The notes beneath the pieces are model-generated. The model had not been told where the DNA came from and ran no database searches. It was given only the letters and a program-made list of their open reading frames with translations. Shown here one piece after another: positions 1-63,226 of a stretch of DNA of 64,000 nt. A program made the translations under genes and the position numbers. This DNA is from Cliona cf. orientalis (Eukaryota > Porifera > Demospongiae > Clionaida > Clionaidae), in NCBI GenBank assembly GCA_963930775.1, contig OZ005694.1, forward strand, positions 5,201,054 through 5,265,053, in the 5' to 3' direction. How positions within the stretch are numbered: position 1 is the stretch's first letter; each line of letters starts with the position of its first letter.

Positions 1-144
1 CTGGTGTTCTCGGTGATAGACTTCCCTTTCTACGTCAATCTGGCCCTTCACGCGAGCACCTTTCTTTTCCAACTCTGCCATTCTGCTGTGGGCCTCAGCT
101 CTGTCTTGCCTTTCTTGGTCAAAATCAGCCTTGTACACAGCAAC
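1..144 (-). CDS. UBAN-motif exon of gene 1 (partial)
   Basis: The exon begins after a pyrimidine-rich AG acceptor at 145-146 and reads VAVYKADFDQERQDRAEAHS followed by basic/acidic heptads. The YxxDFxxERxxR core is the signature of the ubiquitin-binding coiled coil of NEMO, optineurin and ABIN proteins. In gene 2 the equivalent exon is 303 bp, so more than half of this one lies left of the window. Confidence 0.75.
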
Positions 145-3100
145 CTGAAAGCAATTCAAGAAGTTGATTTAGTTTACACATTATCATAAATCACGAATAT
201 TTTGTTGCCAAAAATAATATTTTCGGACAGCCTAGCTTATTATGCAAAACTTAAACATGTGAAAACACATGCACAATATTAATGATAATGCGATCATACA
301 GGGTTGTTTATCTGAAAAATAATTAATTATCACACGAAATATTTTAGACACAAAATGTTTGTGATTTAAGGTATGTGTAATATGTTACGGTAACAAAGTT
401 ACCTGTGCATTTAGAGCAGCTACTTCATCCTGCAGTTGTTCTTTCATCTGTGTTTCCCGTTCTAGATTTTGCTTAGCATCTGTCAGCTCCTTATGCATCT
501 CACCACATTCCTCCTGCAATCAGAGAACCAAGGTCATACCCATACAATTTCCATGTCCTGAGCTAATACACCAATCCAAAATTTAATGTACATGTATGCT
601 ATTGGCATACAAAAAGTGCACTTAATCAGGACAAATGAACATAATCAATTCATAATGTACAGCAAATGCATAACTTCACTATCATTCGAGTTTATGAGCA
701 TGATGATCCTTACCTATGTCATTAAGTTCAAGCAGCACATGGTAAGACTAGGTACGGTTGAAGATCGTGGCCGATAAAACACGTACATAGTTCGTAGTAC
801 TCATGGCCATTATCAAGTTCTCAGCAGGCACTTGTAGCACACTATCTATGGCAATTTTAGAGCTAACTAACAATGCATGACCCTCACAATGAGCTACATG
901 TAACAAACAGTGTCTACTATAATTCTATTATCCAAATCACACATGATTATCTGTTCATGGATCATAACCCATTGTTTAACCACAACAGCCAATGAATATT
1001 GATAGTCATGGCCCACCTGCCACGCCACACTATAGAAACAGAGATTCTGTCTGCAATAATATTCATATCCTACTAGTCACTGCCGACATAATGTCACTGC
1101 TGCTACTATGGCAATATTCTCATGTTCTTCTCACAATAGAGTCACTGAAATCATATGACAGCCTTTTAGCTAATGACCTCAACTCAATGGGAGCATGTGA
1201 TTATAGCGGTCATGTACCGTGCGACCACGCAACACAAAGTGCACGCATGCAGCACAGGTGCAGGTGTATGTTATCAAAAGGACTCGTGCACATGTACTGT
1301 AATGTCCTATTATAGGCGAGTGCCCCCCACTCCCATTATATAATGTCATGTACATGTACATGTAAATACCTGTATACCATGTTCATTGGATGCTTCCATC
1401 CTTATACTAAGATTATAGTTGTCTGTGCATGCGTGCGTACAAGCGGGAGGTGACCGGAAGCGATTCGACCCGAGCTAAAAAATGTTCTTTCTCGCCGTCA
1501 CTGGACTTGGGACGCTACAACAGAGAGCCCACTGACACGGCTGGCTATGGCCCCAGCAGCCACTAAAGTGAGCTGCTTCAGAAAAACAGCGGGGCAGAAT
1601 TAGACTGAATTGTACACTTACATATGACGGCCTGGAAAATGCGAAAGGATGACATTCTGGAGTCGATGTTGCCCATCAATGCTTTCCAGAGAGAGGCGAT
1701 TCTATTCTAAGTGTCTTCTCTTGGGACCCCATGCGAGCGAAGCTACAAGACAAGTAACGAATTCTGATTGACAAAGTCACATGATTAGGCAGGATGTGCA
1801 CGTGCGCTAACTTTGTCTCCGCGCATGCGCATAAACACGTAGGTAAGGTCGTCGACCTCACATGCACAATAATAACACAGGGATAAAGGAGTGAGCGAGC
1901 GAAGCGAGCTCACTCCTTTATAATACATGTATATCATATCAGGCTGGAATAAGCACTAAGATGGGTAAAGTATTCTGGGGACGGTGCTACTCATGTATAC
2001 ATACAAGAAAAATAATCATACCTTCAGATCATGAAACATTCTCTCCATCGACTCAAACTGTCCTTCCATAAACTAGAGTAGCAGAAACAGCAAAGATAAT
2101 CGTATAACTTAGGCTAGAGAGAGAGAGAGAGAGAGAGAGATGCTTACTTCAGTTGCTTCGACCTGTTGTTTGTATTTGAGCACCTGCCGGCTCTGTTCCT
2201 TTGAATGATCATTTAACTTGGTTAAACCTGCCTTTTGGTCTTTAACTCGAGCTCTTAGGCGTGATATTTCTCCCCTCAGGTCATCAATATCACCAGTAAT
2301 AATAATATCATCCTCTTCACCTTCCAAAGATACGACTAGTCCACTGTCCAGCTGATGCTGCAGATTTTCATTTTCAGCTCGAAGTGCCTTATTTTGCTCA
2401 ACTTCAACACAATAGTCAGTTTCTAAAATTTTGGCGTGTTCCTGATGACTCTGTTTTTCGTCTTCAAGCTCCCTTAGTTGTTGCAGTCGTTTGTTATGCT
2501 CCTCTCTCAAGGCACGGATTTCCTCCTCCTTCTCAGACAACTGGATAAGCAGCTTCTCACTTGTGGACAATGTCAGTACAAGTTGTTGTTGATTTTCTCT
2601 GTGTACATTAACCATATCAGAACCTTGATCCATGATGATTTGCAGTTGGACCAAGAACTTCTTGAAATTTTCGACTATCTCTTTCAGCTCTTTTGAAAGT
2701 TGCTTAGCATGCTTCTTATCCTGTGACGGGATAATAATATAATGTAATATTATTAAGAAATAGTTTTAAGTAATTTGTAGTTTGTTACGACATTGTCATC
2801 AATGATAAAATACTGTGTATATTGCAATAATTTGTAATTATTTACATGTACCTGACAAGATTTAATCTTCTCCTCAAGTCTTGCAATACATTCATGGATA
2901 TCAAGTTCAGCTTGATAGCTACTAGAGCTTGGATGCTTCGCTGAATCTTTTGGCTTCCTCCTCCTACGAACACAGCATAGCAGCGGCCCGAAGAAGCGAG
3001 ACGACCTTGAAGTTGCATATACTACTGCAGGGGGCACAGTCGAAACCGCTTGGCTATGTATAATAGAGTATGAGTTCTCCATATGAGTCGAGGAACTGAC

Positions 3101-3199: not shown

Positions 3200-3615
3200 T
3201 TTCGAGGCTCCCCGGAGACACGATTTAACTCTTTTGTGGATCTTTTAAGGCTTAACGTGATCAGGCTTCAGTTCAAGGCATTGATCGACACTGGACCGTG
3301 GTGGAATCAGCGGCTACATCGTGATGATATCCTAGATCCTACAGCCGTTGACTTGAGTTCACGTGCTGGTGAGCCCCTCCCATGTCACATGTTTGCAAGC
3401 CTCGCCCACACACATGATCATCTTGTGATCTATAGCCACCTTGCTTCCTCTCACCTTGTCAAACTGCCTTGTACATGTAGATCCCTTCTCCAATTTTCCA
3501 GTGGACAGTGTTGGAGGCTCAAAATCAACAGGATTAATCTATAATTCACTTGCGCCATTCAGGAGGTGAATACTGCTAGCCTGAGTATATATAGTACGGT
3601 GCAGCAATCATTTCC

Positions 3616-4839: not shown

Positions 4840-4844
4840 TATTG

Positions 4845-5863: not shown

Positions 5864-6589
5864 CTAATCATCCGTTCCAGTGCAAGTGCTAACATGCTTC
5901 TTAAATTTCTGGATCTCACCGATTCGAAACTTCTTCCTGCACATTGGGCAGACGAGATTGGGGTCAAAAGGTCGTCTGGGGTCTGTGTTTGCATTCCGTC
6001 TTCCTCCACTGACTTCCTGAATGACTTGAGCAGCTTGTTGGTGAATCTCGTCATCCACCTCCTTTTGCAGGGGATTCTCATATTGAGCCATACTATCTTC
6101 AATATCGCTAGCTTCATAGTGAATATCCTGTTGACAGACATTGGACTGACTCACTGGAACATGATCAGGGAATGGTTGATGTGATGACTCGGATACCACA
6201 TGCTCCAATTCATTTTCATCAGATTCTGTCAATGATTCGGAGTGCAATGGTTTTGGTGCAATTTCTGCTTCTGAAGGTGGGAGGGGTGTAACAGCATCCT
6301 TAGCCTGTTGCAGGGCTGCTGAATAATTATCAACTAGCGTTTCTGGAGTGACTATCTTGCCGCACTGATTCGGAAGGCTTTGTGGTGCTGATGCCGTGCC
6401 ATTAGTGTGAGGGATGACAGGCAATAGAGCACTGATATTGATTTGTTGTGATTCAGCAACACTGCCGGCCTGCTGGGCTGAAGGTAGAGTCACATGATTT
6501 TCTTTTGCACTAGTTGGTGAAGACAGCACTTGAGGGCCTGGGATTCCATTTGATATTCCATTCTGAATCGTTAATCTTTGTTTGCAGTC
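5864..6589 (-). CDS. Last exon of gene 2: linker plus CCHC zinc finger
   Basis: The exon starts after ATAG at 6590-6593 and ends at TAG (5864-5866). It carries a low-complexity Ser/Pro/Gln linker, the family block EVDDEIHQQAAQVIQEVSGG and the terminal finger RPFDPNLVCPMC..FRIGEIQ..H-x3-C. Gene 3 has the same EVDDEIHHEASEV block and finger. In NEMO and optineurin the terminal CCHC finger binds ubiquitin; the same role is inferred here. Confidence 0.85.
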   Translation of the reverse strand, partial: DCKQRLTIQNGISNGIPGPQVLSSPTSAKENHVTLPSAQQAGSVAESQQINISALLPVIPHTNGTASAPQSLPNQCGKIVTPETLVDNYSAALQQAKDAVTPLPPSEAEIAPKPLHSESLTESDENELEHVVSESSHQPFPDHVPVSQSNVCQQDIHYEASDIEDSMAQYENPLQKEVDDEIHQQAAQVIQEVSGGRRNANTDPRRPFDPNLVCPMCRKKFRIGEIQKFKKHVSTCTGTDD

Positions 6590-9500
6590 CTATTATATGA
6601 AACCTAGCTATAATAGCAATTATTATGCATTGTTAGCTACAATTCTTACATTATTACAAAAGCGTTCTTCTCTTAAGCGTGCATTGACTTCCTTCAGTTC
6701 TTCAATTTGATCATAAAGATCTGAATTCTCACTAGATAGTCGCTACAATAATCATAAACACAAGATTATGGCTTATTATACTTGTTCCTCATTCCTCGAA
6801 ATGGTACTTAAAACAATACAGCCACATGTAGGCACTTAGCTACCGTATAGCCGGAAAATTTGGCGGTCTATATTACAACCGCCAAATTAAAATCCGCCAA
6901 AATTTCTTACTCGATCGTATATATTATACGTATGGCAATCCCGTACCGAACCGTCAATTTTAAATCCGCCGATATTCTTGCAATAGCGATTTTGGGCTCA
7001 TCCGCCAAATTTAATGCCCGCCAATATTTCCGGCTATACGGTATAATACCATCTCAACATTTCACGTTAAAACATGCATGGGAAGGTCTGTAGTACAAAC
7101 AAAATTTATTGAGAATAATTAATTGAACCTCAATATCATCTTGAGCATCCTTGTATAAGTGATTCACTTTCGTAAAACCAGTGTTAGTCTGTACAGATGA
7201 ACTGTGACCTTCCCTGGGATTGCTTCCTAAAGTGCTCTGAAGTGTAAGTGTGAATATTTGAATAATAATAACTATTATTACTATTATTGAAAGTGCCCAA
7301 AGTGTACCTGTTGCTTCAATCGTTCTACTTCCTTGGCATACTGCTTGACTTGGCTGGATTTAGCCTGTATATCCTGCTCCAATCCTTGGCATTTTTGCCT
7401 AGCCAGCTGCACTTCCTTAGTAAGCTTTTGATTCACTATTTCTACTGCTGATAACGACAGTTGATGCTCAACTAACTGCTTCTGTAAGCCCTCAAAATCA
7501 CCTTGGTGCGCTTTTAATTGATGAATGGTCTCTTCCAGTTTTGCTATCTTACTGTGAGCTACTTCATGATCCCTTCTCTCCATGTCGAAATCAGATTGGT
7601 AAACCTTCAACTATAACGTTGATGGATAGGAATAAAAGATACAAAATGCAGCTATGAATAATGATTGTGATAGCTTGAGATAATGCATGCTAACAAGAAT
7701 GCTTCTTATTAGTTCATAATATGGGGTATATTTCAATGCTGAGTACCTGAGCATTGGCAGCTTGAACTTGATGTTCCAATTCTCTCACTGTCTTTTTAGA
7801 TTCTGCAAGTTGTGCACTGAGACTACCCATTGACTGCATGGATTTACAAAGCTGCTTGTATTCATCGGCTAGAGTAGCGTGGTGTTTCCTTAAATTATCG
7901 AGTTCATTCTGTTTTTAAAATTATGGACATGAAAGCCTAGATATATTATGCAGTTGTAACATACCTGGTTATTACCCATTTCATCCTTCAGAGCTTTCAG
8001 CTCTGCTTCCAAGTTCTTTTTCGCAGATTGAAGAGTGATCACAGTCACATTTACTTTCTTTAGATCACCTCTTAGCTTATCACTTTCCTCCTATGCATTT
8101 TTTATAATCATAGCACTTGAAATTAATGACATAATTATAATGATTATTTTTAATAACAGTAGCCAATCGACATACAAAATCACAGGCTTATACAAGAGCT
8201 GCAGCCACAAAGGGAGCGTGCAGGAATGCATGCATGGGGAATCAAACCTGGACACTTATTTATATGGCAAGCTATAGAGAATAATTTTCTGGTTCTGATC
8301 CACTAACATAATAATATAAATAAATATTAATCTTTACCTCTACTTCATGTCTCATTCTTTCCTCTGAGTCGAGTTGAATTTCCATCATCTATAGATCGGC
8401 AAGTAAACAGTAAAATTAATGTGAATGTAACGATTGCAATACATATAAATCTGTTTTGGAGGGAAGGAGGTGAATGTGCCCTGGCTAAATTCACCTCTTT
8501 TTAGGGGGCTAATCCAAAGTCCTTGTGGAAAAATTGATGTCATTAGGATGTAAAGGAGGAGGGGGTCTTAGTCCATGACGTTTTACAACTTCATTGTCAG
8601 AACTAGCCGGCTTTAGTTGCAGTATGAATTATATACATTCTTGTGGTTGAATAAGTCCAGACATGCCTCCAGCATTCATTGAATGTGTCAAAACGTCCAT
8701 TTAGTGACAGCTGTGTCAAGCACTACGTACTGGCTAGAAGTGTAGCTATAGTATATAGGCAAGCAAGAAACTATCAAAGAAGCATAGGTATAATATATGC
8801 AATGAATCCATAAAGATAATACTGTAGCTATAGAAGACAAGTGATTAATGTGTAGGCTAAATGGAACAGAATCAGATCGACTTTCAATGTTAAATCTATG
8901 CTGAAATGTTGTGATGTTAAGAGAGTGGGATAAAATGTCATAATGATGTTAATTTTTCCACAAGGACTTTGGACAAGCCCCCTTACCGATACCCAAAATA
9001 ATAATTATTATGCTATAGCTTGTATAGGTCCATGGGGCTATTAATTTTGAGTTTCTGGGGTGTCATTCAAAGCTGGCTTTTCACTTATATGTATGGACTC
9101 TGGAGCCTGCATAAATACTATCAATAAGAATTTTCTATTATGATAATTGTTACGTACCCCTGTCATTTCAGTTTGTTGCCTAAGCTTCAGTATTTGTCGA
9201 CTTTGTTCCTTGGAATGATCCCTTATTTTCTCCAAATCATCATTGAGATCACCTACTTGCTTCCTTAAAAGAGTTAAAACTCTCTTGTAATTGGAGATCG
9301 TTCGTTCATCAGAGCTAGCGTCTTCTATACATTCCTCAGAAGATAGAGATTCCAATTGATGCTTTAGGTTTTCAATTTCAGACTTAAGGACTTGATTTTC
9401 TTCTACTTCGACATAACAGTCAATTTCAAAGTATCTTGCTTTCTCAGTTAGATGAGCATTTTTCGTTTCAAGGGACTTAATCTGCTGATCGCGAGCCTCA

Positions 9501-10153
9501 TATTTCTCCTTCAGACATTTAATCTGTTCCTCCTTCTCAAAAACTAGGTTCTCACTGATCTGCTGTTCAGTCTGCTGATCTTTGGATAGATGACTGTGAG
9601 CACACTGAACACCTCCAAGTTGCTCTATTAGTGACTGATTTTGTTTCCTTGCTTCTTTCAGCTGTCTCTCCAGGAGGGATATCTTCTTCATACAGCTGGT
9701 GTTGCGCTCTTGCAAATCATCAACCTTACTCAGAGCTTGAGCAAGAGTATCAGAGTTAGTATCATCATGATTCTATGTAAGAATAGCTGGTAATTTATTA
9801 ATTTTTTTATTATTAAGCTCTATCGATCTCTAGAATCTGATCTCTCGGACACAAAATCTTTCCGTGTCAGCTCATACCTGAAAGGTGATAACATCCTTTT
9901 CCATGGGCTGATCATCTCTCCCACTAGATTGTTGAGATCTGCCTTCAGGACTCACTAGATTTTCAGTGATTACGTCCTTTGTCTTCATGAGCCAAGTTTT
10001 TAAGCCACCAAGAGAAAAACTAGATTTTGTTTCTGCACTGGGAGTTTGTGAGTCTGTTTCCTGAACCGCGACATGGCTGGAACTCGGCGATGATGGAGGT
10101 CTGCCACGATTGTGCGGACCTTGATCACGAGGGTATGAAGCATAATATGCCAT
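5864..10153 (-). CDS. Gene 2: UBAN coiled-coil and C-terminal zinc-finger protein, NEMO/optineurin-like
   Basis: Complete nine-exon model of about 819 aa: 9878-10153, 9158-9772, 8338-8388, 7965-8090, 7747-7908, 7308-7610, 7129-7236, 6650-6742 and 5864-6589. Every exon is a multiple of three and every junction is phase 0. The N-terminal 92 aa are Ser/Pro-rich. Residues about 93-410 are coiled coil with the signature DHSKEQSR near 285. Residues about 411-511 hold the UBAN motif (VYQSDFDMERRDHE). Residues about 579-783 are Gln/Ser/Pro-rich, and 784-819 form a CCHC finger (C792, C795, H810, C814). Coiled coil, UBAN and terminal CCHC finger is the NEMO/optineurin order, so polyubiquitin binding in the cytoplasm is expected. 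The start is the only ATG in the open first exon. The next paralogue ends 298 bp upstream. I cannot say whether it acts in signalling or autophagy. Confidence 0.85.
6841..7043. repeat. MITE, TACCGTATAGC family, 203 bp
   Basis: It starts TACCGTATAGCCGGAAA and ends with TTTCCGGCTATACGGTA, an inverted repeat of about 17 bp. The interior repeats the theme of CCGCCAAATT blocks in both directions. It sits in an intron of gene 2. Related ends occur at 45938, 49698, 50532 and 62484. Confidence 0.85.
7308..7610 (-). CDS. UBAN-motif exon of gene 2
   Basis: The 101-aa exon opens LKVYQSDFDMERRDHEVAHS, the UBAN core, and continues as coiled coil to SSQVKQYAKEVERLKQQ. The closing block QVxQYxKExxRLKxQ is shared with genes 3 and 4, so the whole exon behaves as one domain. 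By analogy with NEMO and optineurin, a coiled-coil dimer would bind Met1- or Lys63-linked ubiquitin. Confidence 0.85.
8503..8982. repeat. MITE with GGGGGCT...CCAAAGTCCTTGTGG ends
   Basis: The ends AGGGGGCTAATCCAAAGTCC and GGACTTTGGACAAGCCCCCT are terminal inverted repeats of about 30 bp. It is inserted in the intron between exons 2 and 3 of gene 2. A second copy in opposite orientation lies at 20003-20451. Confidence 0.85.
9041..9106 (-). CDS. Possible alternative terminal exon of gene 2
   Basis: After the end of exon 2 (9158) the frame stays open through a 51-nt interval that starts GTACGTA and ends ATGCAG, then codes 21 aa (APESIHISEKPALNDTPETQ plus one residue) and a TAA at 9041-9043. Splicing or retention of the 51-nt interval both keep frame. 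Using it would give a truncated form of about 318 aa (335 aa if the interval is retained) without UBAN and zinc finger. The 17-aa exon conserved in the paralogues lies further on at 8338-8388, so this is at most an alternative end. Confidence 0.35.
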   Translation of the reverse strand, partial: APESIHISEKPALNDTPETQN

Positions 10154-10451: not shown

Positions 10452-11597
10452 TTAGATTATAGTATCATCTGTCCCATCACACGTACTGACATGGTGCTTA
10501 AACTTTTGAATCTCTCCAATGCGAAACCGTTTCATACACATTGGGCAAACAAGATTGGGGTCAAAAGGTCGTCGACGGTCTGTCATGATGTTTCTTCGAC
10601 CACCACTGACCTGTTGCATCACCTCTGATGCCTCATGGTGAATTTCATCATCCACTTCATTTTGCAAACGGTTTTGAAATCGTAAGTCTTCATCATCTTC
10701 ACCCAAATAATCTTCAGGAGGGAGGGATGGTTGATTGGGACCAGGCTTTTGTTGAGTGTGTTGTTCTGATCTCTTTTTAGATCTTCCACTTACTGTTTCA
10801 GTTTTTACTACTGTTTCGTGGCTTGGTTCAGAATCTGGTGTTGGTTGATACCTTTGTTGCCGGCGTGACTCTTGCCTTTCATTTCCCATAGCTGACTGGT
10901 TTGGCTCACAATCTGGTGGTGGTGGTTTGTGAGATCGAGATTGGCTATGATGCTGTGGCTGACCACCCAATTGTGATTGGGCCTCATACTGGTACTGTGG
11001 TGCACTGTTAGAAGCTGTGTGTTGATAGCCAGCACCAGATTGTAGTTGATAGGTGGCTGATTGGGAACCACCAGTGTACTGATTAGGGTCATAATTAGTA
11101 GCAGAAACTTCCCCTGTAGTGGGTGGCCGATTGATAGGGTTAAGATTACCCGAAACATGTTCTTCTCTAGCATAGTGTTTGGTGTTGTCATAGCCGTAGC
11201 CACCCGCAGTTGCACCACTATACTGGTTTAGCGCTTTGGACTGGTGTGTGCTTTGAGGATTATTATTGTAAGAAGTCTTCAAATTTGACCCAGTAGGAAC
11301 ATGTTGAGGTGATCCTAGCTGATTCTGACCTACAGGTTGTACGGATACACGTACATTAGAGGCTTCTGCGATGTTTTCTCCTTGGGTTATGGGCGAAGGT
11401 GATGTTGGAGCATATAATGGGACAGTCTGATGTGGCTGTTTGTACTTAAATCCAGGATCCGTCGCTCGGAGTGGTGCTGATGTAGGCTTGGCTCTAGGGT
11501 GGTCTTCTGCAGACAATGGTAGCTGCTTTGGAATTGGTCGATGGAGCTCACCAGTTCCAACAGTTTGAGATTCGGTTCCCAATGATTGTGGTTGATC
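10452..11597 (-). CDS. Last exon of gene 3: disordered Q/S/P/Y-rich region plus CCHC finger
   Basis: The exon opens after TCCAG at 11598. About 300 residues of repeated Gln, Ser, Tyr, Asn and Pro (prion-like composition) precede EVDDEIHHEASEVMQQVSGG and the finger RPFDPNLVCPMC..FRIGEIQ..HHVSTC. It is the longest linker in the array. Such a composition can support condensate formation, but that is inference. Confidence 0.85.
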   Translation of the reverse strand, partial: DQPQSLGTESQTVGTGELHRPIPKQLPLSAEDHPRAKPTSAPLRATDPGFKYKQPHQTVPLYAPTSPSPITQGENIAEASNVRVSVQPVGQNQLGSPQHVPTGSNLKTSYNNNPQSTHQSKALNQYSGATAGGYGYDNTKHYAREEHVSGNLNPINRPPTTGEVSATNYDPNQYTGGSQSATYQLQSGAGYQHTASNSAPQYQYEAQSQLGGQPQHHSQSRSHKPPPPDCEPNQSAMGNERQESRRQQRYQPTPDSEPSHETVVKTETVSGRSKKRSEQHTQQKPGPNQPSLPPEDYLGEDDEDLRFQNRLQNEVDDEIHHEASEVMQQVSGGRRNIMTDRRRPFDPNLVCPMCMKRFRIGEIQKFKHHVSTCDGTDDTII

Positions 11598-14500
11598 CTG
11601 GAGATAGAAAACATATGTAAACATGTTGTACACAATATCACCATTGGTGCCAAACCCTCGGCTCAACGAGATTTATTGAAATAGTAATGATATACATGCA
11701 TACTGCGTGTCTAATTGCACAGGTAGCTATAGCTAGCAGTATGTAATCTACTGGTTGCAAATTTGCCATGGAGGCATAGATCTATGATGGAGCAACACTG
11801 TTAGTGTGGAGCGAGTAGGTAAAGGTCGTCGGGCTAAAAAGGCGTCTAGCTTGAAGACTCATGATTCAAGCTTATGATAATCAGTGATGAGTTACATGTA
11901 TAAGAACTATCACACACTCGTCGATATCTTCTTAAAATGAAGCGATTGCATATCCATCTCGATCTTGTCAAGAAGCAGCCCCTGGGGATGAAGCTGTTAT
12001 GAAGCTAGCTGCTATATACCCGGTTTATACATTGAAAGGAAGGTGCTATCAGACTTCTTGTGGCATTTTTAAGGTAAGCAATATGCACGTGTGGATTTCA
12101 CCTGCCTCTGCCTCTGACCATGCGCAATTATTGCACCCAACCCTCGCGCATGCGCCGATGGTCAAAACATATTATATACGGTATATGCACTGCTCGTGTA
12201 TTATTTTGCGTATAAATAGAAGGTAGAGTATTGAAGTCAAGAAACTCAAGTGACACCAAAGCTGGAGAACAAGGCGTTTTCAGCGAAATCCACACAACAT
12301 GATTATGCATTTGGAACGGCGGAAGGAACTGTACAAAACCACATTTTGGACTTGCAAACGAGGTATGTAGCAGTTATATAGCTTGATAACAGACACACAG
12401 ACATATTATTATAAATGACTATACCGTAACCCTCGCACATGCGTCGAGGGTTAATTATATTATGCATATGGTGGTAGGCTTACAGATAACTGGTCTCCAA
12501 GTGAGGAATAGTCATCTTGAGTGGGAGAAACGGCAGAGGAGTCCTGATGAACGATAATTACATGTATATGTATAATAATATATCCGTGGTCATGGATGTC
12601 ATGGGCAAGATTCACACATCCACTGTGGTCAGCACCCACATTGGATTGTCTATTCCCTCTGCCCACACCCGCCCCCCCCCCCCCCCCCCCCCCCCCCAAA
12701 GTTTTGCCTCAAATATCCTATTAAGGTCCAAAACTTGTCTAGTGCAAGTACATTGTACTTAGGACGTGGCGAGAATGGTTTGCACACACTTTAAGGTGCA
12801 AATTACCTAGTACAAGGTGCTTATCCCATAGTGTCATACACCACGAATTTATTTATGATTGCAATTTACAGGAAACAAAATTAATGCACATGTACATGTA
12901 AAGTATACCTTTTCAGGTTGAGTGGCATTTGGATCTTGCTTAAACAGTTTCTTTAGCTCCCTATTAATATTAGTCAAATTTTCCACCTCGTCATTGCGCA
13001 GGCTAAGTTTTGAACGCAATTCCTGAGTATAAATAGTATGTGTATGTATAGTGTGTACAGTGTCATTCATAGTATTCATAACAATACAATCTTCTATAAC
13101 AATTTTGAGGGAAATACCCTCCCTATGCACTTGCTAACCATATCCGTTTAGTTACAGCATCCTAGTCTCATCCTCAGGCCACTCAAGTCCATTAAACATG
13201 CATGCAGAAAAATGAGAGCTTCCCAGTTCTTACATGTACGTGTAAAATGTAGGATTGTCAGTCTGTACATGTACATTATTTACTAACTAATGATTAAATG
13301 CATGTGCAACAAAGGCACTGGAATGCAAAATCCTCAACACTGCATGACTCCAGGTATCATGTAGCATGGCGATGAGCACTAATTAATCAAGGAGTATATA
13401 GTCACTGGTTGAAGGTGTGGCCAAAATGTTTGTTCATGTATTGTGCATGCGTGAGTAATCATAATAGTCTCACGGCATTCTCCATTTGAAAACGATCACA
13501 GATCTTTTCCATTTCTGCTACTTTCTTGTCAGCGGCCATACTAGGATCGGGTAGAGCTGGTGTGGATGGCTTTTTCAGTAGATCTTTACTCCCTTTCTTT
13601 TCGGCTCTTTTCTTCATAGCATCCATCTCCTCTGTGAGTTTAAGCATGCTGGAGAGAGACTGATCAACCTAAATATCAGGGATATTCATGATAATGACTG
13701 CTTGATTATGCACATGCTGTAGAAGTACAACATATGTGTTTGAGTGTGTGCGTTGTATAAATATACTTTACGCACCTGAGCTTTCAAACGATCATTTTCT
13801 TTCTTGTACTGTCGGACCTGGCTCACTTTAGCTTTCACTTCATCACGCAGTTTCTCAACCTCCATCTTCTGTTTTGCTAAATCACTCCGGAGCTTATCCA
13901 CCTTTCTTTCAAGTTCTCCTTTCTCCTTTTCCAATTTCTGGTATTGTTTCTCATAGGTTGCTCTTTCAACATCATTACGGCCTTTCTCTCTTGCCAGCTC
14001 ATTCTCCAGGTCTGCCAGCTTGCCATGTGCTACCTCTCGATCTTTACGTTCATCTTCAAAATCAAATTTATAGCTCTGAATCTACATAAATACATTGACA
14101 TTACATTGTAAAATAGATGCCACTAAACCTGTGGGATTGAGTCTGCTTTTATTGCAAACCTCGAGGCATTGGTGTTATAATATGTAGCTATACCTGCATG
14201 TATGACGTCATAATTTTTCCGCCCATTTAAATTTTGTAGTTCTTATAATACATGATAATGTATTTTCACAGCACCCAGCCCATCTGCAAAAGTACAAAAT
14301 TTTGTACCACACAAAAATTTCCCGCTATACAGTACCTAACGTGCTGTATTATTAGAATACATACAGTATACTACATGTATTATATATAGTATAATATTGT
14401 ACTGTGAGCATAGTACATGTACCTGCATGTTTGCTGCCGCTAGTTTCCCATTTAAATCCTCAATTTTCATTTTTAAACTGCTTATGGTTAGAGCTTCTTC

Positions 14501-17500
14501 TTGATGCTCGTCACTAACATGAGCAATCTTCTGCTGGAGTCGTTCATTCTCAGTAGCAAGAGTGTCATAGTCTTTCTTAATCTTGATACACTTTGCTTTT
14601 GGACATTGTGCAAGATCATCGTCAAGCTGAGCCTACAATATACATGTACACACCATAATACATACATGTACACATACACTTATATTGTATGCATAAAGTA
14701 CCTTAGTGTCACTAAAGTTAACTGCACTTTAAGTTAGCGATTTTCAGGAGAGAGGATTTAGCTACACTTTAATTTAGCGATTTTGCATGAACCACAATAC
14801 AATGTCATGAATAATACATCTCGAAAAATATTTGGCCTCATCTTAATTTAGCGAATTGGGTAAAGATCGCCAAATTAAGGTGTAATTAACTTTAGTGACA
14901 CTAAGGTATACCGTATAGCAGGTACTTTTCGTGGGGGCGGGGGGGGGGGTGCTAATTTTCATGACTGTTCTAACAGTCACAAAATTTAAACCCACGAAAA
15001 TTTGCCACAGTAATCTGGTAAAGTTGCCACGAGTGTGCACGTGATCGTGGTCAAACACATGGCATCTGCTTACAATCTACAATCATTGAAACTGGAAATC
15101 TCTGTTTCTGTCACTTTGATGACAGTCATTGGTTGGTTTGGTGAATGGGCGTGGCAAGTGCAATCATTAAGCGGCACGAAATTTAGGACCATGAAAATTA
15201 TTTTTGGAGGCTAAATCTTGCTTTTCATGAAAATTCATACCCCTGAAAACTAGTAGTCTGGCAGGCCAGCCCTTCATAAAAGGGAAGGAGGTGGTGTCAG
15301 GTACATATACATGTATAATATGCTTACACCAGACCCTCACAAAAGAGACCCCACATTGGGTGCTGACGAATAATTATAATGTATGCCCAATAGGTAGCAG
15401 AATATTATGCATGCACCATACCTCCAACAGCCTGCTTTTTTTAGCTTCAGTCTGGTAAGCTTGGTGTGTTCTCTGAAGTTCAGCGGTCAGTTTGTCATGT
15501 TCCCTCTTGAGGTTGTCCCGTTCATGCCTGACTTGACCCAGTTGTTGTTGAAGCTGGGATACTCTACCCTAATAATGATAGTGAAAGGTATAGTTAATAG
15601 ATATGAGATACCGTACATGTAATTCTTACATGTACCTCAGTTGCATCAAGTAGACCTTGAGATGACTGTAGGTGTTCATTTTTCTCCACCTGAAAATATA
15701 TACATGTATGCACCTCAGTAAACAACACAACTTATTCTCCATTAGAGTACATACATGTACTGTGCCCTCGCGAAAGAGGGCCCACTACGGAATGTCGGCC
15801 CACCCCCCACTTTGGGCTCGATTTCGTGCTAAGGTCTAGTGTTTACTTGAATATGCACCCATGATGTGTAGCTGCCATTGAAAACGCAGCTCAAAATTTA
15901 ATGGCTGGTTTATGAGGACTGAACTTCGAATAGTCTATGTAAGATCGATAAGTAACCTGCTAAACAGCCGTAAAACTAAGCCTAGCTAGCTTTATGCCAC
16001 GTTTCAGCACAAATAAACGATCGTACACGGCTAGCGACTGTAGCCACGCCCACTTAATATGGCTGCACTCAACAACACACAGTGAAGTATCGTGGCCTCC
16101 CTTGCTCTGGATTGGTAACCGTGCTTAAATAAGGCTGAAATCAATAGTAGCCGCTGCTACTATTCAAATTATGAAGCTAGCGTGGGTAACTTACATGTAC
16201 CTGGGTGCTCTTTTGTGTATAAACGCGATACTGATACCTCGAATATCAGCCCATCCATCTTGGTTCAATGTACGGTGCACCGCCCATGGGCCCTCTTTTG
16301 CGAGGGTACGGTATATGTATAGGTTACATCACGAGGTGGAGGTCTCTACGGGATTTACACACCGAGGGCCGAAGGCCCGAGGCTGTGTAAATCGCGTAGA
16401 GACCGAACCGAGTGATGTAACCGACTTGTACCATGGGCTACGTGGTCCTGACAACGTATCTATGGCCTAGCAACTACAGCGCCGGCCATAAAAGGCTCGA
16501 GCGTGTACCTAGCAACAGTTCAAACCGTCGTTGATCGAGTCGACGCTGGACATCGATGCATAGTGAGCTGACGCCGTTTTCTGTCCGACTCGAACTTCTT
16601 CCTTGACATTCAGAACCACAATACTATCGTCGCTGCGTACAAAAGGCCGGCCATGTCATCGCTGTCTTGATTTCAACTCGTGGTAGTCAGAGTGCAGCTT
16701 AGTTTTTACTACTGCTGACTTGGTAATCATTCGCTCCACCCATTCAATTAACGCAGTAAGACCTGCCCACTAATCATCTGCATACAGCATAGCACTAGAG
16801 CTCTATACTTTATCTCTTTCACTAACAAAAGATGCTGTAACTACCCTAGCAGGCATGATCATGTAAAATTTCATAGCCTCAGAGGTACATGTAGGTGTCT
16901 ATCTAGATAGACACCTAGTTGCATTACTAAGTTTACACATGTAGAACAATGGCGCAACACGCATGATGCTAACTGGCCAGACGTAGCCTCGACCCCAGGC
17001 CACTCCCACGTTTTCAATGTTGCACCCAGAAAAGGGGGAGAGCCTGGGAGGCAAAATCACGTGAGCGCGATTGCGCAATGGCTTTGTACACAAAGCATAG
17101 AACCGTACATGAACCGTACTGATAGCACAAATGGCCCTATTTCGCCGTTTATTAGCCTTTGCTACTGTTTCAGACGTTTACAGCTACCAAAACCGTTCAA
17201 CTCGATTGCTGTGTCGATTTGTCTGTTGTGGCCGCTCGGATCGATCATCTAGTCTGAAGTCTCTAGTCGCGATCGACGCCATCTCGAGTGTTGGATGTCA
17301 AATATAGTCGTGCACTGGCCAGGTGATATATAACGCCCGCACATCCTTCAAAACATCGTTTTTCACGGTTCGGGCACGGTTCTATGCTTTGTGTACAAAG
17401 AAATTGCGCAATCGTGCTCACGTGATTTCGCCTCCCAGGCTCTCCCCCTTTTCTGCGTGCAACATTGAAAACGTGGGAGTGGCCTGGGGACGAGGCTAGG

Positions 17501-51439: not shown

Positions 51440-51940
51440 TCATACGTTTAGTCCAATAGAATTCAAATCCTTTTTCTTGTTCTCTGAATGGCAGAGTTTA
51501 TAATGTTTTTTGTACTCCTGAATTTCACCAATTCGAAATTGTTGCTTGCATTTTGGACATACCAGGTTAGGATCAAAAGGTCGATCATCACTCTCCCCAT
51601 TTCTTGGTGTCCCAAAATTGTCAACTGCCTGAGGATTACCTCCAATCTCTAATCTTTGTTGTTGCTGCTGATTGTAGCGTCCTTGTGGCAAAGGAGGTGT
51701 AATCGGTTGTGCCAAAGGAAGGGCTTCAGCCACAACTGGCCCAACACTAGCTTGCCGTCTATAGGGAGATTGAGGTTTTGGACTTCGGAATACTGGTGTG
51801 ACAACAGCAACTGGTGAAGGACTGCGAGATCTGTTCCCAGTTGCAGCAGGTGACTGAGACCAGAGATTTAGACCTAGAGCTGGAGGGACTTTCTTCTGAT
51901 GCTCTTGAGAGTCCACATTTACTAGCACATCTTCACGTAA
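51440..51940 (-). CDS. Last exon of gene 5: SP-rich linker plus zinc finger
   Basis: 166 aa after acceptor TTTAG, opening LREDVLVNVDSQEHQKK. It aligns throughout with 27974-28492 and keeps all metal ligands. Confidence 0.8.
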   Translation of the reverse strand, partial: LREDVLVNVDSQEHQKKVPPALGLNLWSQSPAATGNRSRSPSPVAVVTPVFRSPKPQSPYRRQASVGPVVAEALPLAQPITPPLPQGRYNQQQQQRLEIGGNPQAVDNFGTPRNGESDDRPFDPNLVCPKCKQQFRIGEIQEYKKHYKLCHSENKKKDLNSIGLNV

Positions 51941-57900: not shown

Positions 57901-60900
57901 TCTTGTGTGTCAGCAAGCTTAAATCAACAGCAAGGTGTGTACTACTGCATGGGATTCCACTATAGGTACCCTATACACTGCTACATAAGAGCATCTATCT
58001 TGGGATCCCATGCAGACCCCAAACTGAAACTTTTACAGCTAATAGGTGAATGTCTAGTAACTATCCACAAAATGTAATACAAAATTCCAATCAGCATTTT
58101 TTGAGAGATCAAAGGTCAAAGTTTAGGAGGGCGTGGCTATTAACAACTTCATCAAATGAAGCCATTCAATATACCATATGAAAGCTCATTCTTTGAGCTT
58201 TAAGGTGGTGCAATTCGTTTTTCAAAACAACAAAAAATGGCGAAGTTATGAGGGTTTGAATGGTCACGGGTACAGCAAAAACAGCGAAAAAGTAAAAAAC
58301 TTAATGAGCCATTTCTGGGAAGCCATACTAGCAATGAAGGTAAAATCTCTTCGGGTTACATATCTCCACTTGGGCTACCCACAAACCGAATTTCGTCCAA
58401 ATCTGAGCGGGTCATGTGCGAACCTTCGGTGAACTGATATGGAATTACCCATTGATAAATTACACTAAGTGCAATAAAAAAGAACAGAAACAAGTGTAAA
58501 AACAATTGAATAAAATTGAAAAATGAAGTAGGGATGGCAGGATCAAAAAGTACACAAACAAGAGATAATCGCATCTACTATACATCCCTACGCTTGCTTT
58601 TTGAGGGGTGCAAAAATAACCAGTAATAATGCGATTGAATCAAACTGATAAACCCGAACCATCGTGACAACTAGGGAACAACCTGCACGAATGTCTCCCA
58701 CATACCGCACTCAACAAACACGTCAACCATGATTAAGAGGTGCACAATAGTCGAGAAAAGCAAGCGTAGGGATGTATAGTAGATGCGATTATATCTCTTG
58801 TTTGTGTACTTTTTGATCCACCTGCTATCCCCACTTCATTCTTCAATTTTATTCAATTGTTTTTATACTTGTTACAGATTACAACAATCCTGAATTGAAC
58901 TTCATACTCATGGTGGTGCCTGTATACATCAAGTCAGCTTCCCTCACAGTAGCCTCCTTGGCTGTATCAACGGTTATTATGCCGGCCAAGTTAGGACTGC
59001 CACTGTGCTCCGATCAGTAATGAGCCAGTTGTCTTGTTGAATCTACAGCTAATCATACAATGTCATACTCTTCGAGTTGAAAAGCAGCCAGTGTTGTCGA
59101 AAGTAGCTCGCCTTGAGCTAGCAAGGAGACAGTGGTGGCCAGCATCAATAATTATTGTAACCGTGCTTACTGCATATGCACCGAGGATTAATAAATTACG
59201 TACATACAGTGTAATATTAATACATGTAGCACATGACATATAACGTTCTATTTGTACGTAAAGCCATGCTATCGCTAGCCTAGAAAAGTCAAGAATCAGC
59301 AAATGATGCCAAAATTGGCGAACAAAGAATTTTCGGCAAAATCAACACAAATCATGCGTTTGAAACACCATAAGGAGCCATATAACAGAGGAAATTAGAC
59401 TCATAAACAAGGTATATAGCAGCTAGCGTGGTAGCAGAGACAGATACACAGAATGACTACCGAAACAATTGTGCATGCGCCGAGGGTTAGTCATGTATGC
59501 ATGTATGTATATTATAGTAGCAGTCAAAAAAGGCGACATTTCCGTTCTGTTCCGCCCCGTCCAGATACCCTAGTGAACTATCCCAGAACAGATAAGAAGA
59601 CCGTGGCAGTATAAAACTATCGATTCTAGTCAGCAAGTGAATAAGCTAGCCTTTCATTTTTTGCGCGTGGAAAGACCACGCCCAACTACCAATTGTGCAT
59701 GCGTGCATACGGAACGGAGATGGCACAGCTAGCATGAATGGTGCGATGCTGCTCTTCGATTTTGAGTGAATTCTGCAATCGAGGCTCGACTGGGTTTGAA
59801 GTCTGCTATTGATTGATCGACCTCACGTTGCCAGTCGACTCTGATTGCCTCCAAATGCAATTGCTTGGATAGAGCAATGCTTCTTTTGATTATTTAGGCT
59901 CTTAAGGTGTCATTTTTGTGCTAGCTACGATTGGGAATAGTCGATTGCACTTTCTATCGCGTTGGCTTCCGCCCGTCTCATTTCCATTCTTGTGTATGGG
60001 GAATGGCCATTTTACTTCCATCTCGACGGGGCAGAATGGAATGAAAACGGCCCCATTCTTTTTTACTCCTACTAGCTGCAGAATGTATTGCACCCCTTGC
60101 ACATGCACAAAGGGTTAAAGTAAATTATAAAGATTTGTAGGGCTCCTTAATATTAATTTTGATCTAAAAGTAACACCTTGCTTACCTTGTGTGAGGACGT
60201 GACAGCTGCCCCTGGTTGTTTTTTCATCTGATATACTTCATCACGTAATGTTTTATTTTCATCTTCTATAGCCTACAGTATAGAATTAGAATCCATTCAC
60301 AGGAAATACAAACCACTACAGAAGTGGATTCTATTTACAGAAACATAAAAATTAATTATGATTGGAATGGCTATATCATGCAGCTAATGTTTGGTAGTAC
60401 ACCTGATTCCATCATATCAGGTGAGATGGCAGTATTATATCCACTGAGAGGGGAGGGTGGCAGCCTCCCACCCCCTAAAACTTTGACTTTAACATGGTCC
60501 CGGTCAAGCACCCACTTCCCAGTATAAGCCGACACGTACCTATTATCGACACTTACCATACCGATTATCGACATAGTAGTAGTTTACTGCGAATTACAGT
60601 ATTATCCGGAGCAGTGTCCAGATCATGCTGAAGAGTATCACAGACCATAGATTCTATGCACAGACCCGTAGCCTTCTCATGGGCAAAAGGAAATACACAA
60701 GAAGGAATGGGGCAAGAAACCAGCCAGTAGGCGTGGCAAAGAAGGCCCATGCCAAGCGAGATCAGATGTAGTCGGCCTGAACGTTAACAATTAAATCCAT
60801 AGTTCAAACAGTATACGAGCTAATTCAATAAGAAGAGAAATGGAGCAAGAGGACATACAAAGACACCTGTAGAATTTTATCCAGAATTTTTATGACTTTC

Positions 60901-63226
60901 TGGGGAGGAGATATAAGCCCAAGAAGTTCGAAATGGTATAATTTGGCGTATTAGCGACTATGAGGTGGTGATAATACATACAGGGTGACGATAATTAATT
61001 TTTTTTTACCAAATCTCACGGAGCACATAGCTCCTTGATTGTTAGGGGCTACCTCTTTCCAGTCTATATGATTGTACCCTAGCTGAACACCTCTCCTTCA
61101 ATGCAAGAATCAGCTTCATAACAAACTGGGGAAATAAAGGGGTCGACAATTGGCAGCTTATGCTACTGCATTCAAGGGGACCATGTAGTAGCTTCTAGAC
61201 AAACGTATGAAATTTATATCATAGGGAAATGCCCATGTGGGCCGGGCCAAATCACAAGTTATGTCTAAGGCACTTATATTATGGTAATTTAATTACTGTA
61301 TACTTTCTAATGTAGGCGTCGCTAAAAATTATTATAGACAAAAATTAACATAGGCACTTCCAATTATATAGAACCAAATAATTTGCGAACAGGTGAACAG
61401 GTCAAAGGGCGCCTAAGAGCTGCAATTAGAACAGTTCTGGAAGTTTTCCAAAACCCAAGCACTATCACTGACCAATGGTTTTAATTTTAGTGACAATGAA
61501 TGTGTCGGTGGCGAAAACAACAAAAATATGGCTCTAATTACACTTCTTGTTAGAAGTTTCACTCTGATCATTGAATTATACTCGAGTTGCTGGTCTATAT
61601 ACATAGTAACCATTAGCAGAACAGTTGTCTCCTACACCGGTAAAACATCAAAGCAGTAAGTAAATGTAAGTGCCCATATAAGTGTAAGAGATAGCTTATT
61701 TTGACATCTAAACTGCTAGTTTGATAGATTGACTTGATCAATAGTATTGCGATAATATCGCACCTGGAAATATTAATAGGCGCTGCCTAAAAATAATTGA
61801 TATCCAGAAAGGTGTGCGGGGCCTTAAATTAGAACTGAAAAAAATTGTGTAGGCATAAAAGGGCTCCCTATAATATTATAACATAATTACAAGCACATCA
61901 AACCTCTGACTTGCTTTTTCATCCAAATTTACCTGAAGCAATCTGGAGGAAATTCTCCTAAACAATGTCCCAAGGAACTTGGTATGATATAAATTAACGC
62001 TCACTTGCATATTGTGCTTCCACCCCAATTTCTGTTGCTAAATGAAACCCTGGATGGTCATCCATAGCCTTGATGCCTAGCCCAAAAACAAATGCAAACG
62101 TATGCAGCTTTGAATTTAGGGTGGATTCCATGTAAACTTGCTTTGGGATGGGCCTAAATTGTAGGTAGTAAAAAGTGTAGCTAAATGATGAAAGTAACTA
62201 TAGTAAGAAAGCTGCGTCTGTTGCTCATCTTAGCATGCATTAGCAAACTAGAGGTCAATGGACCACATACCTCATGCGCTGCCCTGCATGCTTACCGTGA
62301 TTAAATGGTCACCAATTATATACATTGCTTAACAATTGTGCACATGATTAAAACAAGAATTAGCCCTCGTGACCAGTGTTATTTGATTCCAAGCCACTTT
62401 TAATTGTCATTACAACTCACCCAGGCACGTACCTACATACATATCTCCAGATCAGGCCATTTATGTACCGACAATGATAATGATACCGTATAGCGGGAAA
62501 CTTTCAAGGGAAAAAACTTTCACGAATTTTGCGATTTTTCAGCCATCCGCGAAAGTTTTCTCCACGAAATTCTAGGATGTCATGCCCATTATGTGACCAG
62601 TTTTAACATTCCGCGAAAGTTTTCTCCGCGAAATGCTCCTTTCCTACCGATCCGCGAAAGTTTCTCCCTCGAAAATTTCCTGCTATACGGTATCTGACAG
62701 ATAAATTGATTGCTTTACCCAACTGAAAATAGATCAAATATTATGCAGATAGGGCAAAAAAAATTCGCTCGCAAACTGTCAAAATAGGTGTGGTTTAATT
62801 GTAAGGGGACATCTTCTCAAAAGTGTTCATGTAAAATTTGTGCGTAATGGTGGGTTCATTCCCTGCTATACAGTTGTCTTCCATCATACATTATGATACT
62901 TGTGCATACTTGGTATCTGATCTCATGACTATTCCCAGCCTTTCCCAGATGTCATAATTATATGTACATGTATGAGCACAGGCTTGGTCTGATGTACTCA
63001 GCCCTAGGCAATTAATTGTTCAATGAACCATGGCTTTTGCATAATTACTTTATTTAATCATAAACTTTAACGATACCTGCATATGAAGTAGCACCTTGTC
63101 CAATCGTTTCTCCAGATGAGTAGTTCTACCTTCTTTGTAACCCGAATCACCCGAGTACACAAATGGTGATGTTTCAGATTCACTATTGCTCTGGCTATTA
63201 CTCTTTTCAATTACAGTTTGATTGAC
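51440..63226 (-). CDS. Gene 5: C-terminal part of a gene 4-like zinc-finger protein (5' end outside window)
   Basis: Three exons are visible: 63077-63226 (50 aa), 60186-60272 (29 aa) and 51440-51940 (166 aa and TGA). Each pairs with one of the last three exons of gene 4 (32733-32870, 29475-29567, 27974-28492), in the same order and phase. The last exon has NRSRSPSPVAVV, SPYRRQASVGP, a Gln run and the finger DRPFDPNLVCPKC..FRIGEIQEYKKHYKLCH. The UBAN and N-terminal exons should lie to the right. The 8.2 kb intron 51941-60185 is full of mobile DNA. Confidence 0.75.
52073..52587. repeat. Uninterrupted copy of the AAGTCTGGTTAATAAGCGC element
   Basis: Ends AAAGTCTGGTTAATAAGCGC and CTTATTAATTAGACTTTACGG; inverted relative to 39315-40796, whose nested insertion it lacks. 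Confidence 0.85.
52817..53135. repeat. MITE with TAGTAATGGGC ends
   Basis: Ends TAGTAATGGGCAATATAC and CCAATACCGCCCATTACTA are inverted. The interior is rich in GATACCG words. It lies in an intron of gene 5. Confidence 0.8.
53231..53680. repeat. MITE with AGGATTGGTATGTTATGCG ends
   Basis: The ends AGGATTGGTATGTTATGCG and CGCATAACATACCAATCCT are exact complements. It contains the palindromic CCACCCTCGAGGGTGG and a GGTCTGGGCACGAGAC word also found at 55028. Confidence 0.9.
54586..55128. repeat. Inverted-repeat element with GTACTCGCTCTAATTAT ends
   Basis: The ends GTACTCGCTCTAATTATCCG and the complement TTCGAATAATTAGAGCGAGTAC. It abuts the larger transposon 55129-58449 and contains the hairpin 54988-55044. 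A 79-codon plus-strand frame in it (54751-54990) has a hydrophobic segment but no known domain. Confidence 0.8.
54988..55044. repeat. Perfect hairpin, 24-bp arms
   Basis: TAGTCTCGTGCCCAGACCCC plus CACC and its exact complement around a 9-base loop. Half of the same sequence occurs at 53338-53364. Confidence 0.9.
55129..58449 (+). mobile_element. DNA transposon of 3.3 kb with terminal inverted repeats of about 0.5 kb
   Basis: The left arm (55129 to about 55605) and right arm (about 57935 to 58449) are inverted copies with a few percent difference; the tips are GGTAATTCCATATCAG and CTGATATGGAATTACC. Between them the plus strand has degenerate frames (see 56313-57600). The long arms and the absence of RT indicate a cut-and-paste type element. 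I do not recognise the superfamily with certainty. Confidence 0.75.
56313..57600 (+). pseudogene. Degenerate transposon protein (possible transposase)
   Basis: Broken frames in series: 56313-56666 with a Cys pattern (ICDTCRKKLSKEL), 56738-56947 with a helix-turn-helix-like stretch (KSWSVKKIQQEFGVSEYLVR) and 56978-57526 with KFAELRPEHCVLAGASGTHS followed by VCVHTIHQN. I recall this last block from many uncharacterised, multi-copy proteins of cnidarians and fish, but cannot verify it. Stops and shifts separate the parts, so it is inactive unless introns are involved. It lies inside 55129-58449. Confidence 0.55.
58494..58885. repeat. Fold-back repeat
   Basis: Arms about 58494-58605 and 58750-58885 are inverted (GCAAGCGTAGGGATGTATAG and complement). 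A one-arm relative is at 27025-27165. Confidence 0.75.
59246..59492. repeat. Dispersed repeat, copy 2
   Basis: Partner of 12195-12453, same orientation, ending GCATGCGCCGAGGGTTA. Confidence 0.6.
60186..60272 (-). CDS. 29-aa coiled-coil exon of gene 5
   Basis: AIEDENKTLRDEVYQMKKQP plus nine residues; acceptor CTGTAG, donor GTAAGC. Clear paralogue of 29475-29567 with a two-codon deletion. Confidence 0.75.
60273..63076. other. Intron of gene 5
   Basis: No exon was seen. Apart from the MITE at 62484-62692 I recognise nothing; the stretch 60800-62480 is AT-rich and free of obvious inverted repeats. Confidence 0.45.
62484..62692. repeat. MITE, TACCGTATAGCGGGAAA family, short form
   Basis: 209 bp with ends TACCGTATAGCGGGAAACTT and TTTCCTGCTATACGGTA. 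The interior has three CCGCGAAAGTTT words. Confidence 0.9.
63077..63226 (-). CDS. 50-aa exon of gene 5
   Basis: Acceptor TGTGTAG, donor GTATCG. VNQTVIEKSNSQSNSESETS then RTTHLEKRLDKVLLHMQ. It aligns with 32733-32870 of gene 4. Confidence 0.75.

Follow-up and report, generated by a model that had tools for sequence, protein, structure and literature searches.

A local cluster of predicted ABIN/TNIP-type UBAN genes in the sponge Cliona cf. orientalis, with a candidate kinase-UBAN branch

We examined a stretch of 64,000 nucleotides from the sponge Cliona cf. orientalis (hereafter the window; C6:5,201,054-5,265,053, C6 being contig OZ005694.1) for genes encoding the coiled-coil ubiquitin-reader domain UBAN, against the background of a genome of 216.8 Mb in 149 contigs. 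The minus strand of the window carries four UBAN exons (<1-144, 7308-7610, 13776-14081 and 41135-41566), four coil exons with an HSKxQSR-type motif and four exons for a C-terminal zinc finger. A previous sequence-only reading had proposed five NEMO/optineurin-like genes with a common exon order in this region. Four of these genes do carry a UBAN exon on the minus strand, the first of them running off the window edge, whereas the fifth is a 3' fragment (fragment 5) lacking a UBAN. Splice models returned the same predicted order, from 5' to 3', for the genes: N-terminal exon, long coil with the motif, short coils, UBAN, coil, linker and finger; the four visible 3' ends carry finger exons, as had been proposed. 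The HSKxQSR signature announced for four coils is present in three coil exons and reads HSVEQSR in the remaining one. Similarly, the YxxDFxxERxDR core is recognizable in all four UBAN exons, except that gene 2 reads ERRDH, with His for the last Arg. The features, all on the minus strand, are:

1..144, minus, gene 1 UBAN exon, extending to window position -161: YKADFDQERQDR
403..513, minus, gene 1 coiled-coil exon, immediate 5' neighbour of the UBAN exon (splice model)
2022..2072, minus, gene 1 short coiled-coil exon of 51 nt, equal in size to gene 2 8338-8388 (splice model)
2148..2720, minus, gene 1 long coil exon, HSKEQSR (motif and splice model)
2852..2963, minus, gene 1 N-terminal exon, start codon uncertain (splice model)
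5864..6472, minus, gene 2 last exon, zinc finger RPFDPNLVCPMC...FRIGEIQKFKKHVSTC (splice model, penalty 4)
6650..6742, minus, gene 2 coil exon (splice model)
7129..7188, minus, gene 2 small exon GFTKVNHLYKDAQDDIE, resembling gene 1 SKLEDLYKTAQHDIQ (splice model, relaxed threshold)
7308..7610, minus, gene 2 UBAN exon YQSDFDMERRDH, His at the last core position (splice model, relaxed threshold)
7747..7833, minus, gene 2 coil exon 5' of the UBAN (splice model, relaxed threshold)
8338..8388, minus, gene 2 short coil exon, 51 nt (splice model)
9158..9772, minus, gene 2 long coil exon, HSKEQSR (motif and splice model)
9878..9988, minus, gene 2 N-terminal exon (splice model, relaxed threshold)
10452..11113, minus, gene 3 last exon with zinc finger (splice model; beta-beta-alpha finger by AlphaFold2)
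11204..11597, minus, gene 3 Pro/Gln-rich linker exon (splice model)
12909..13022, minus, gene 3 coil exon (splice model)
13474..13668, minus, gene 3 coil exon 3' of the UBAN (splice model, relaxed threshold)
13776..14081, minus, gene 3 UBAN exon YKFDFEDERKDR (splice model, relaxed threshold; member of the family profile)
14423..14632, minus, gene 3 coil exon 5' of the UBAN (splice model)
15422..15568, minus, gene 3 coil exon (splice model)
17979..18689, minus, gene 3 long coil exon, HSKGQSR (motif and splice model)
18851..19150, minus, gene 3 N-terminal exon, one or two exons by model (splice model)
27974..28492, minus, gene 4 last exon with zinc finger, ending HYKLYH (splice model)
29475..29567, minus, gene 4 coil exon with a copy in fragment 5 (splice model and blastn)
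32733..32870, minus, gene 4 exon with a copy in fragment 5 (splice model and blastn)
38038..38409, minus, gene 4 coil exon 3' of the UBAN (splice model)
41135..41566, minus, gene 4 UBAN exon YKGDFEEERRDR (splice model, relaxed threshold; member of the family profile)
43512..43706, minus, gene 4 coil exon 5' of the UBAN (splice model, penalty 1)
44484..45203, minus, gene 4 long coil exon, HSVEQSR (motif and splice model)
47630..47722, minus, gene 4 N-terminal exon with DDWVNL (LC3-motif-like, lead only; splice model)
51440..51940, minus, fragment 5 finger exon, 79% DNA identity with the gene 4 finger exon
60201..60306, minus, fragment 5 copy of the gene 4 stretch 29496-29608 (blastn)
63042..63205, minus, fragment 5 copy of the gene 4 stretch 32697-32861 (blastn)

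The exon models are rough. The splice model was trained on these same window exons; with its first splice-site threshold, genes 3 and 4 lost their UBAN exon and gene 2 kept a shortened one, and a relaxed threshold recovered the borders 7308-7610, 13776-14081 and 41135-41566, the same as those named in the sequence-only reading. Some runs removed the fingers of genes 2 and 3. The gene 3 finger exon was kept at penalty 2.5 and lost at penalty 1, and gene 2 models without a finger (all but the penalty 4 run) were discarded since the finger is conserved among copies. A scan of the N-terminal exons of genes 2-4 for W-x-x-[LIV] returned DDWVNL, DEQWELL and LWSLV in gene 4 (47333-47722), SWEDV in gene 3 (18851-19150) and none in gene 2. 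We take some of these motifs to resemble LC3-interacting motifs, which would suit a role in autophagy.

To what extent are these exons UBANs? The pattern Y..DF..ER.[DE][RHK] occurs four times in the window and not once in 100 Markov-1 sequences of equal length, the motif having been composed post hoc with the exons already known. Taken singly, the UBAN exons matched Pfam CC2-LZ under its cut-off (gene 2, 5e-4; gene 3, 0.017; gene 4, 0.0086) and other coiled-coil families at similar E-values. Since unrelated coiled-coil families score similarly, a single-exon match was not counted as proof. When spliced, the gene 1 region reached CC2-LZ with an E-value of 2.8e-7, under the curated cut-off, and TNIP2 in the PDB at 1.6e-5. 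Over the genome we collected 16 UBAN exons, in which Y, D, F, E and R of the coiled-coil core are invariant (16/16). CC2-LZ was matched at E<=0.05 by 13 of the 16 family members, and the UBAN exon of contig C16 alone had no Pfam match at E<=0.01. In the strongest of the tests, a profile built from the 16 exons retrieved 24 PDB sequences at E<=1; the top 20 are all UBANs, the last of them at 0.0053, and after this gap the next, non-UBAN, sequence stands at 0.29. Best E-values were 2.2e-8 for TNIP2, 1.5e-4 for NEMO, 1.9e-3 for TNIP1 and 2.1e-3 for OPTN. Together with the gene 1 match to TNIP2, the profile bears out the UBAN identity proposed earlier, and the sequence comparisons indicate that the window genes carry UBAN homology; the three exons for which a profile search had been suggested match CC2-LZ singly only below cut-off and are linked to UBANs through the family profile. 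No protein-database match at E<=0.001 came from scoring 7,986 candidates against the gene 1 model or 281 against the UBAN part of a kinase-UBAN model described below, which we do not take as absence.

The type of UBAN was then judged by similarity to known members. In an ungapped BLOSUM62 comparison over 36-38 columns, the nearest relative was TNIP2 for 10 of the 16 exons, TNIP1 for five and NEMO for one, on C9. Fourteen cores read ERxD at the position where human NEMO and OPTN carry ERxA, and a NEMO-type ERxAR core was seen in none of the four window genes and in one of the 16 exons (C9). A small UBAN tree of 38 columns joins the 15 non-C9 copies to the two TNIPs (17 rows) with support of 81/80, the remainder being mostly without resolution. 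The N-terminal IKK-binding domain of NEMO (PF11577) was not matched in the genome at E<=0.1, a weak test as introns may split the domain. The NEMO finger was likewise absent from the PDB matches of our finger profile. The window genes look ABIN/TNIP-type rather than NEMO/optineurin-type, and the earlier label 'NEMO/optineurin-like' is not supported, as 15 of 16 UBANs are nearest to TNIP1/2 over 36-38 columns and the finger finds no NEMO finger in the PDB.

The array exceeds the window, and the earlier proposal of a local expansion is supported. Twelve of the 16 UBAN exons are on C6, with one each on C1, C5, C9 and C16; the twelve span C6:5,116,917-5,435,783 (318,866 bp), nine on the minus and three on the plus strand, that is at least 12 UBAN exons in about 319 kb. 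C6:5.10-5.35 Mb was read completely and the remaining genome was sampled by loose searches, the count there being a lower bound. The clustering probability of about 5e-26 is overstated because of this difference in coverage. All 16 UBAN cores lie in open frames. Motifs of the H[S/G]KxQS type recur in other long-coil models, as HGKEQSK at C6:5.13 and 5.31 Mb, and as HSKDQSG near C6:5.405 Mb. Among six long-coil copies, the pairwise ratio of nonsynonymous to synonymous substitution rates (dN/dS) was 0.33-0.54 in 15 of 15 pairs, with a dS of 0.10 for the youngest pair. The six compared copies are under purifying selection and one pair is recent. Taken together, these data make it very probable that genes for ABIN/TNIP-type readers of ubiquitin chains have expanded locally in tandem, with the window as the core of the array.

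By our own count, the C-terminal finger follows the pattern C-x2-C-x14-H-x3-C in most of eight intact copies aligned, and 16 columns are invariant across these eight, two broken copies being excluded. AlphaFold2, working from six sequences, gave a beta-beta-alpha finger, with block means of the predicted local distance difference test (pLDDT) of 84-89 for residues 31-60 and 69 overall. In Foldseek, NDP52 ZF2 and the TAX1BP1 UBZ filled the top four of 18 rows (best E 2.1, not significant) and the FAAP20 UBZ three more. The sequence profile also placed TAX1BP1 first in the PDB (E 0.18, not significant). No UBZ model was among the Pfam matches of the finger. The resemblance to the TAX1BP1/NDP52 UBZ fingers lies in the predicted beta-beta-alpha fold, in the arrangement CP.C...F......F..H and in their being nearest in the PDB by fold and sequence; the window finger differs by one residue fewer between Cys and His, and both E-values are non-significant. 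On these models it is possible that the finger is a UBZ-like second ubiquitin contact.

Fragment 5 shares with the gene 4 region, as judged by blastn, the exon-sized pieces 51439-51942, 60201-60306 and 63042-63205, with six further short or inverted matches besides. There was no match at the UBAN exon of gene 4 and no UBAN motif in that stretch, and fragment 5 was rejected as a complete fifth gene. About 1.6 kb past the window lies the 3' end of another gene, with a finger truncated after APYDPN. In all, two finger exons of the family beyond the window, C6:5266686 and C6:5359183, have a truncated or frame-broken finger. Repeats and mobile elements are present in the window. Overlapping retroelement open reading frames (ORFs) occupy 22505-26546 (minus) between genes 3 and 4, with RVT_1 at 4.8e-17 in Pfam, an RNase H-like stretch at 0.09 and one ORF that is tyrosine recombinase-like by eye with no Pfam match, a set of the kind known from DIRS-type elements. 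Plus-strand ORFs at 56280-57526 are flanked by the stretches 55058-55408 (minus) and 58160-58432 (plus), which face opposite ways and encode a near-identical peptide, SHSIYHMKAHS...; this flanking pair looks like the inverted repeat of a mobile element within the fragment 5 interval. A copy of about 500 bases of 40290-40797 is found inverted at 52071-52549 (77.5% identical), probably a repeat. In the plus-strand ORF 36737-37219, a run of about 46 residues is present twice in the peptide, reflecting a direct DNA repeat.

Three loci outside the window each have a kinase exon that lies 5' of a UBAN exon and in the same orientation:

C6:5113305-5119000, plus, kinase-UBAN locus, kinase exon 2.7 kb 5' of the UBAN exon
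C5:5863523-5868300, plus, kinase-UBAN locus, kinase exon about 2.9 kb 5' of the UBAN exon
C16:2501573-2506972, minus, kinase-UBAN locus (kinase C16:2505941), kinase exon about 2.4 kb 5' of the UBAN exon

On C6, a plus-strand model over 5.107-5.119 Mb joins the kinase exon to coil and UBAN exons; in Pfam it matches PK_Tyr_Ser-Thr at 5.8e-34 and, in one model, CC2-LZ at 2.5e-6, under cut-off. A genome search with the C6 kinase exon, in which 150 of 1,048 candidates were scored, placed C5:5863724+ (65% identity) and C16:2506013- (49%) first among the non-self matches, both adjoining previously found UBAN exons on the same strand. Under random placement of two kinases such adjacency has a probability of about 1e-8. 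Pkinase was matched at 4e-32, 2e-32 and 1e-38 at the three loci. As read from the alignment, the catalytic K, E, HRD...N and DxG are present in 3/3 kinases, with DLG for DFG, and the frame is open through the domain with an ATG ahead at all three loci. In each case kinase homology ends at a GT (GTATGT, GTAATA, GTGAGT), past which the frame continues for 36 (C6), 9 (C5) and 14 (C16) dissimilar residues to a stop. The kinases share 65, 47 and 47% amino-acid identity; the sequence comparison indicates that the three exons are old and constrained, because the proportion of synonymous differences (pS) is saturated at about 0.8 against a nonsynonymous proportion (pN) of 0.21-0.37. At the C16 locus a finger is present in the open frame 2501573-2502373, which the splice model omitted. 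Splice models also removed 54 bases of the C6 kinase frame, most of the C5 kinase and a piece of the C16 kinase. The interpretation of these loci therefore relies on open frames and their conservation. Two similar kinases within the cluster, C6:5145399-5146355 (minus) and C6:5324336-5325283 (plus), both end in YFNEVLP*; they were rejected as UBAN fusions since both frames end at this common stop. The predictor nonetheless joined the C6:5145399 (minus) kinase to downstream coil exons, shortening its frame.

Several observations weigh against the window being the core of an ABIN/TNIP-type expansion. The TNIP assignment is based on about 36 residues and was made with AHD1 and CEP55 outside the comparison. 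On the 13-residue core, 12 of the 16 exons are nearest to a TNIP and four to NEMO, so that this core puts gene 1, C1, C16 and C9 closer to NEMO. Only one of 17 inner branches of the UBAN tree is well supported. A separate UBAN gene at C9:9699381-9702665 has an ERKARE core, the sole NEMO-type core among the 16 found. The 16 exons of the profile had been chosen by motif or CC2-LZ match, so that the profile was not blind. The best Pfam match of the finger is CCHC_BCL-11A (4.4e-4, under cut-off), a BCL-11A-type finger being thus preferred over UBZ, and DNA-binding fingers are also among the 18 weak Foldseek rows. Gene 4, of 20 kb, may be two genes. Finally, part of the array is decaying, because two copies have damaged fingers and fragment 5 has no UBAN.

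Some of these points could be explained in other ways. If the genes were ordinary coiled-coil genes with a convergent UBAN likeness and a ligand other than ubiquitin, single exons would match many coiled-coil families at similar E-values, as they do; the profile's run of 20 UBANs before any other PDB sequence, the match of gene 1 alone to TNIP2, the five residues invariant in 16/16 exons and the lack of chance motifs in 100 random windows make this very hard to credit. The view that these are NEMO or optineurin paralogues, close to the sequence-only reading, and would serve as extra IKK/TBK1 adaptor subunits draws on the UBAN plus C-terminal finger layout of NEMO and OPTN, on NEMO UBANs ranking second in the PDB, on the four best NEMO matches over the 13-residue core, including gene 1, and on the NEMO-like gene of C9. 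It is improbable in view of the TNIP-like ERxD in 14/16 cores, the best scores with TNIP1/2 in 15/16 over the longer alignment, the finger profile's PDB matches and, as a weak test, the unmatched PF11577. An array that arose by repeat-driven duplication and is now for the most part in decay, with one or two genes still at work, would account for fragment 5, for the broken fingers and for the retroelement and inverted repeat inside the window. We consider it unlikely, given open UBAN cores in 16/16 exons, dN/dS of 0.33-0.54 across all pairs of the six copies and the 16 invariant columns of the intact fingers. At the kinase loci, the kinase and UBAN exons could be neighbouring but separate genes, a possibility we rate as rather low: our home-made splice models get the kinase exon wrong at each of the three loci and two other cluster kinases look stand-alone, but of the 149 kinases scored besides the query itself, the top two are found on two other chromosomes, each 2.4-2.9 kb 5' of a UBAN exon in the same orientation, and homology ends at a GT in 3/3 followed by 9-36 dissimilar residues, where the other cluster kinases end in YFNEVLP*. 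From the sequence, these three loci probably encode kinase-coiled-coil-UBAN fusions, which would be kinases activated by ubiquitin chains with sensor and enzyme in one polypeptide, beside kinase-free UBAN paralogues that may compete for chains.

Other components of the pathway were sought in the genome. A HOIP-type UBA exon was found at 4.3e-6, above the family cut-off, and zf-A20 fingers at seven places. The open frames at C14:116642-117583 and C17:4508548-4509096 (745 and 956 aa), each scored with two zf-A20 fingers, are candidate A20 genes. From the HOIP-type UBA exon and the zf-A20 fingers it is plausible that the genome has both a writer and an editor for the ABIN pathway, which lends some support to the linear-ubiquitin signalling presumed in the sequence-only reading.

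Each full gene is predicted to encode a long coiled-coil protein with a partly disordered N-terminus, an H[S/G]KxQS-like coil, a UBAN, a Pro/Gln-rich linker and a C-terminal finger that may be UBZ-like. The proteins may dimerise via the coil, and the UBAN of the dimer would clamp Met1- or Lys63-linked ubiquitin chains, as for the TNIP2 and NEMO UBANs. The finger would perhaps add a ubiquitin contact and avidity, and the N-terminal half may recruit partners, the outcome being a tuning of A20/LUBAC-type immune, cell-death or autophagy signalling. In the three-locus branch, a built-in kinase domain would be clustered and activated by chain binding. Core residues, coil length and finger vary among the copies, suggesting that they prefer distinct chains or partners. 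Division of labour between the paralogues is a reasonable inference, with the kinase loci as the strongest hint.

Among known systems, TNIP2/ABIN-2 (PDB 5h07) is the best PDB match and shares the core YK.DF..ER.DRE..QS...LE; the sponge genes differ by their multi-copy cluster, long coils, x14-spaced finger and, in one branch, a kinase, the comparison with TNIP2 covering its UBAN. TNIP1/ABIN-1 has an ERxDR UBAN and is nearest for five of the 16 copies; presumably it has no C-terminal finger, unlike the window genes. The H[S/G]KxQS-like motif stands 5' of the UBAN, as does AHD1 in TNIP1, which is a lead only. NEMO and optineurin share the coiled coil, UBAN and C-terminal finger, but their core is ERxA and their finger another one, and only the C9 gene is nearest to NEMO over 36-38 columns. 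The IKK-NEMO and TBK1-optineurin pairs also couple a kinase with a UBAN reader. There, kinase and reader are separate proteins, whereas three loci here appear to hold both in one gene. A 2025 review lists NEMO, optineurin, ABIN1-3 and CEP55 as the NEMO family (PMC11854354), NEMO and optineurin are treated in PMC10694592, and PMC11940065 describes the AHD1-UBAN of TNIP1. In the main text of a 2026 review of NF-kB in holozoans (PMC13042239), NEMO, ABIN, TNIP and A20 are unmentioned. Among the literature matches listed, in several cases the best rows of a longer list (25 of 1,707 in one), none reported a cluster of UBAN genes or a protein combining kinase and UBAN.

UBAN readers help settle the fate of ubiquitin chains at immune receptors, mitochondria and bacteria. 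On the sequence evidence, the array is real, extends well beyond the window and looks ABIN-type, and the kinase-UBAN branch is potentially more novel. With no fewer than 16 UBAN exons, of which twelve are clustered, and with recent duplicates, this sponge would be a case in which the reader layer is elaborated as other animals elaborate receptors. The fusion, if true, would unite in one protein what the IKK-NEMO and TBK1-optineurin pairs divide between two. Should single proteins indeed be made from the kinase loci, these would offer a direct test of whether chain binding without an adaptor complex activates a kinase.

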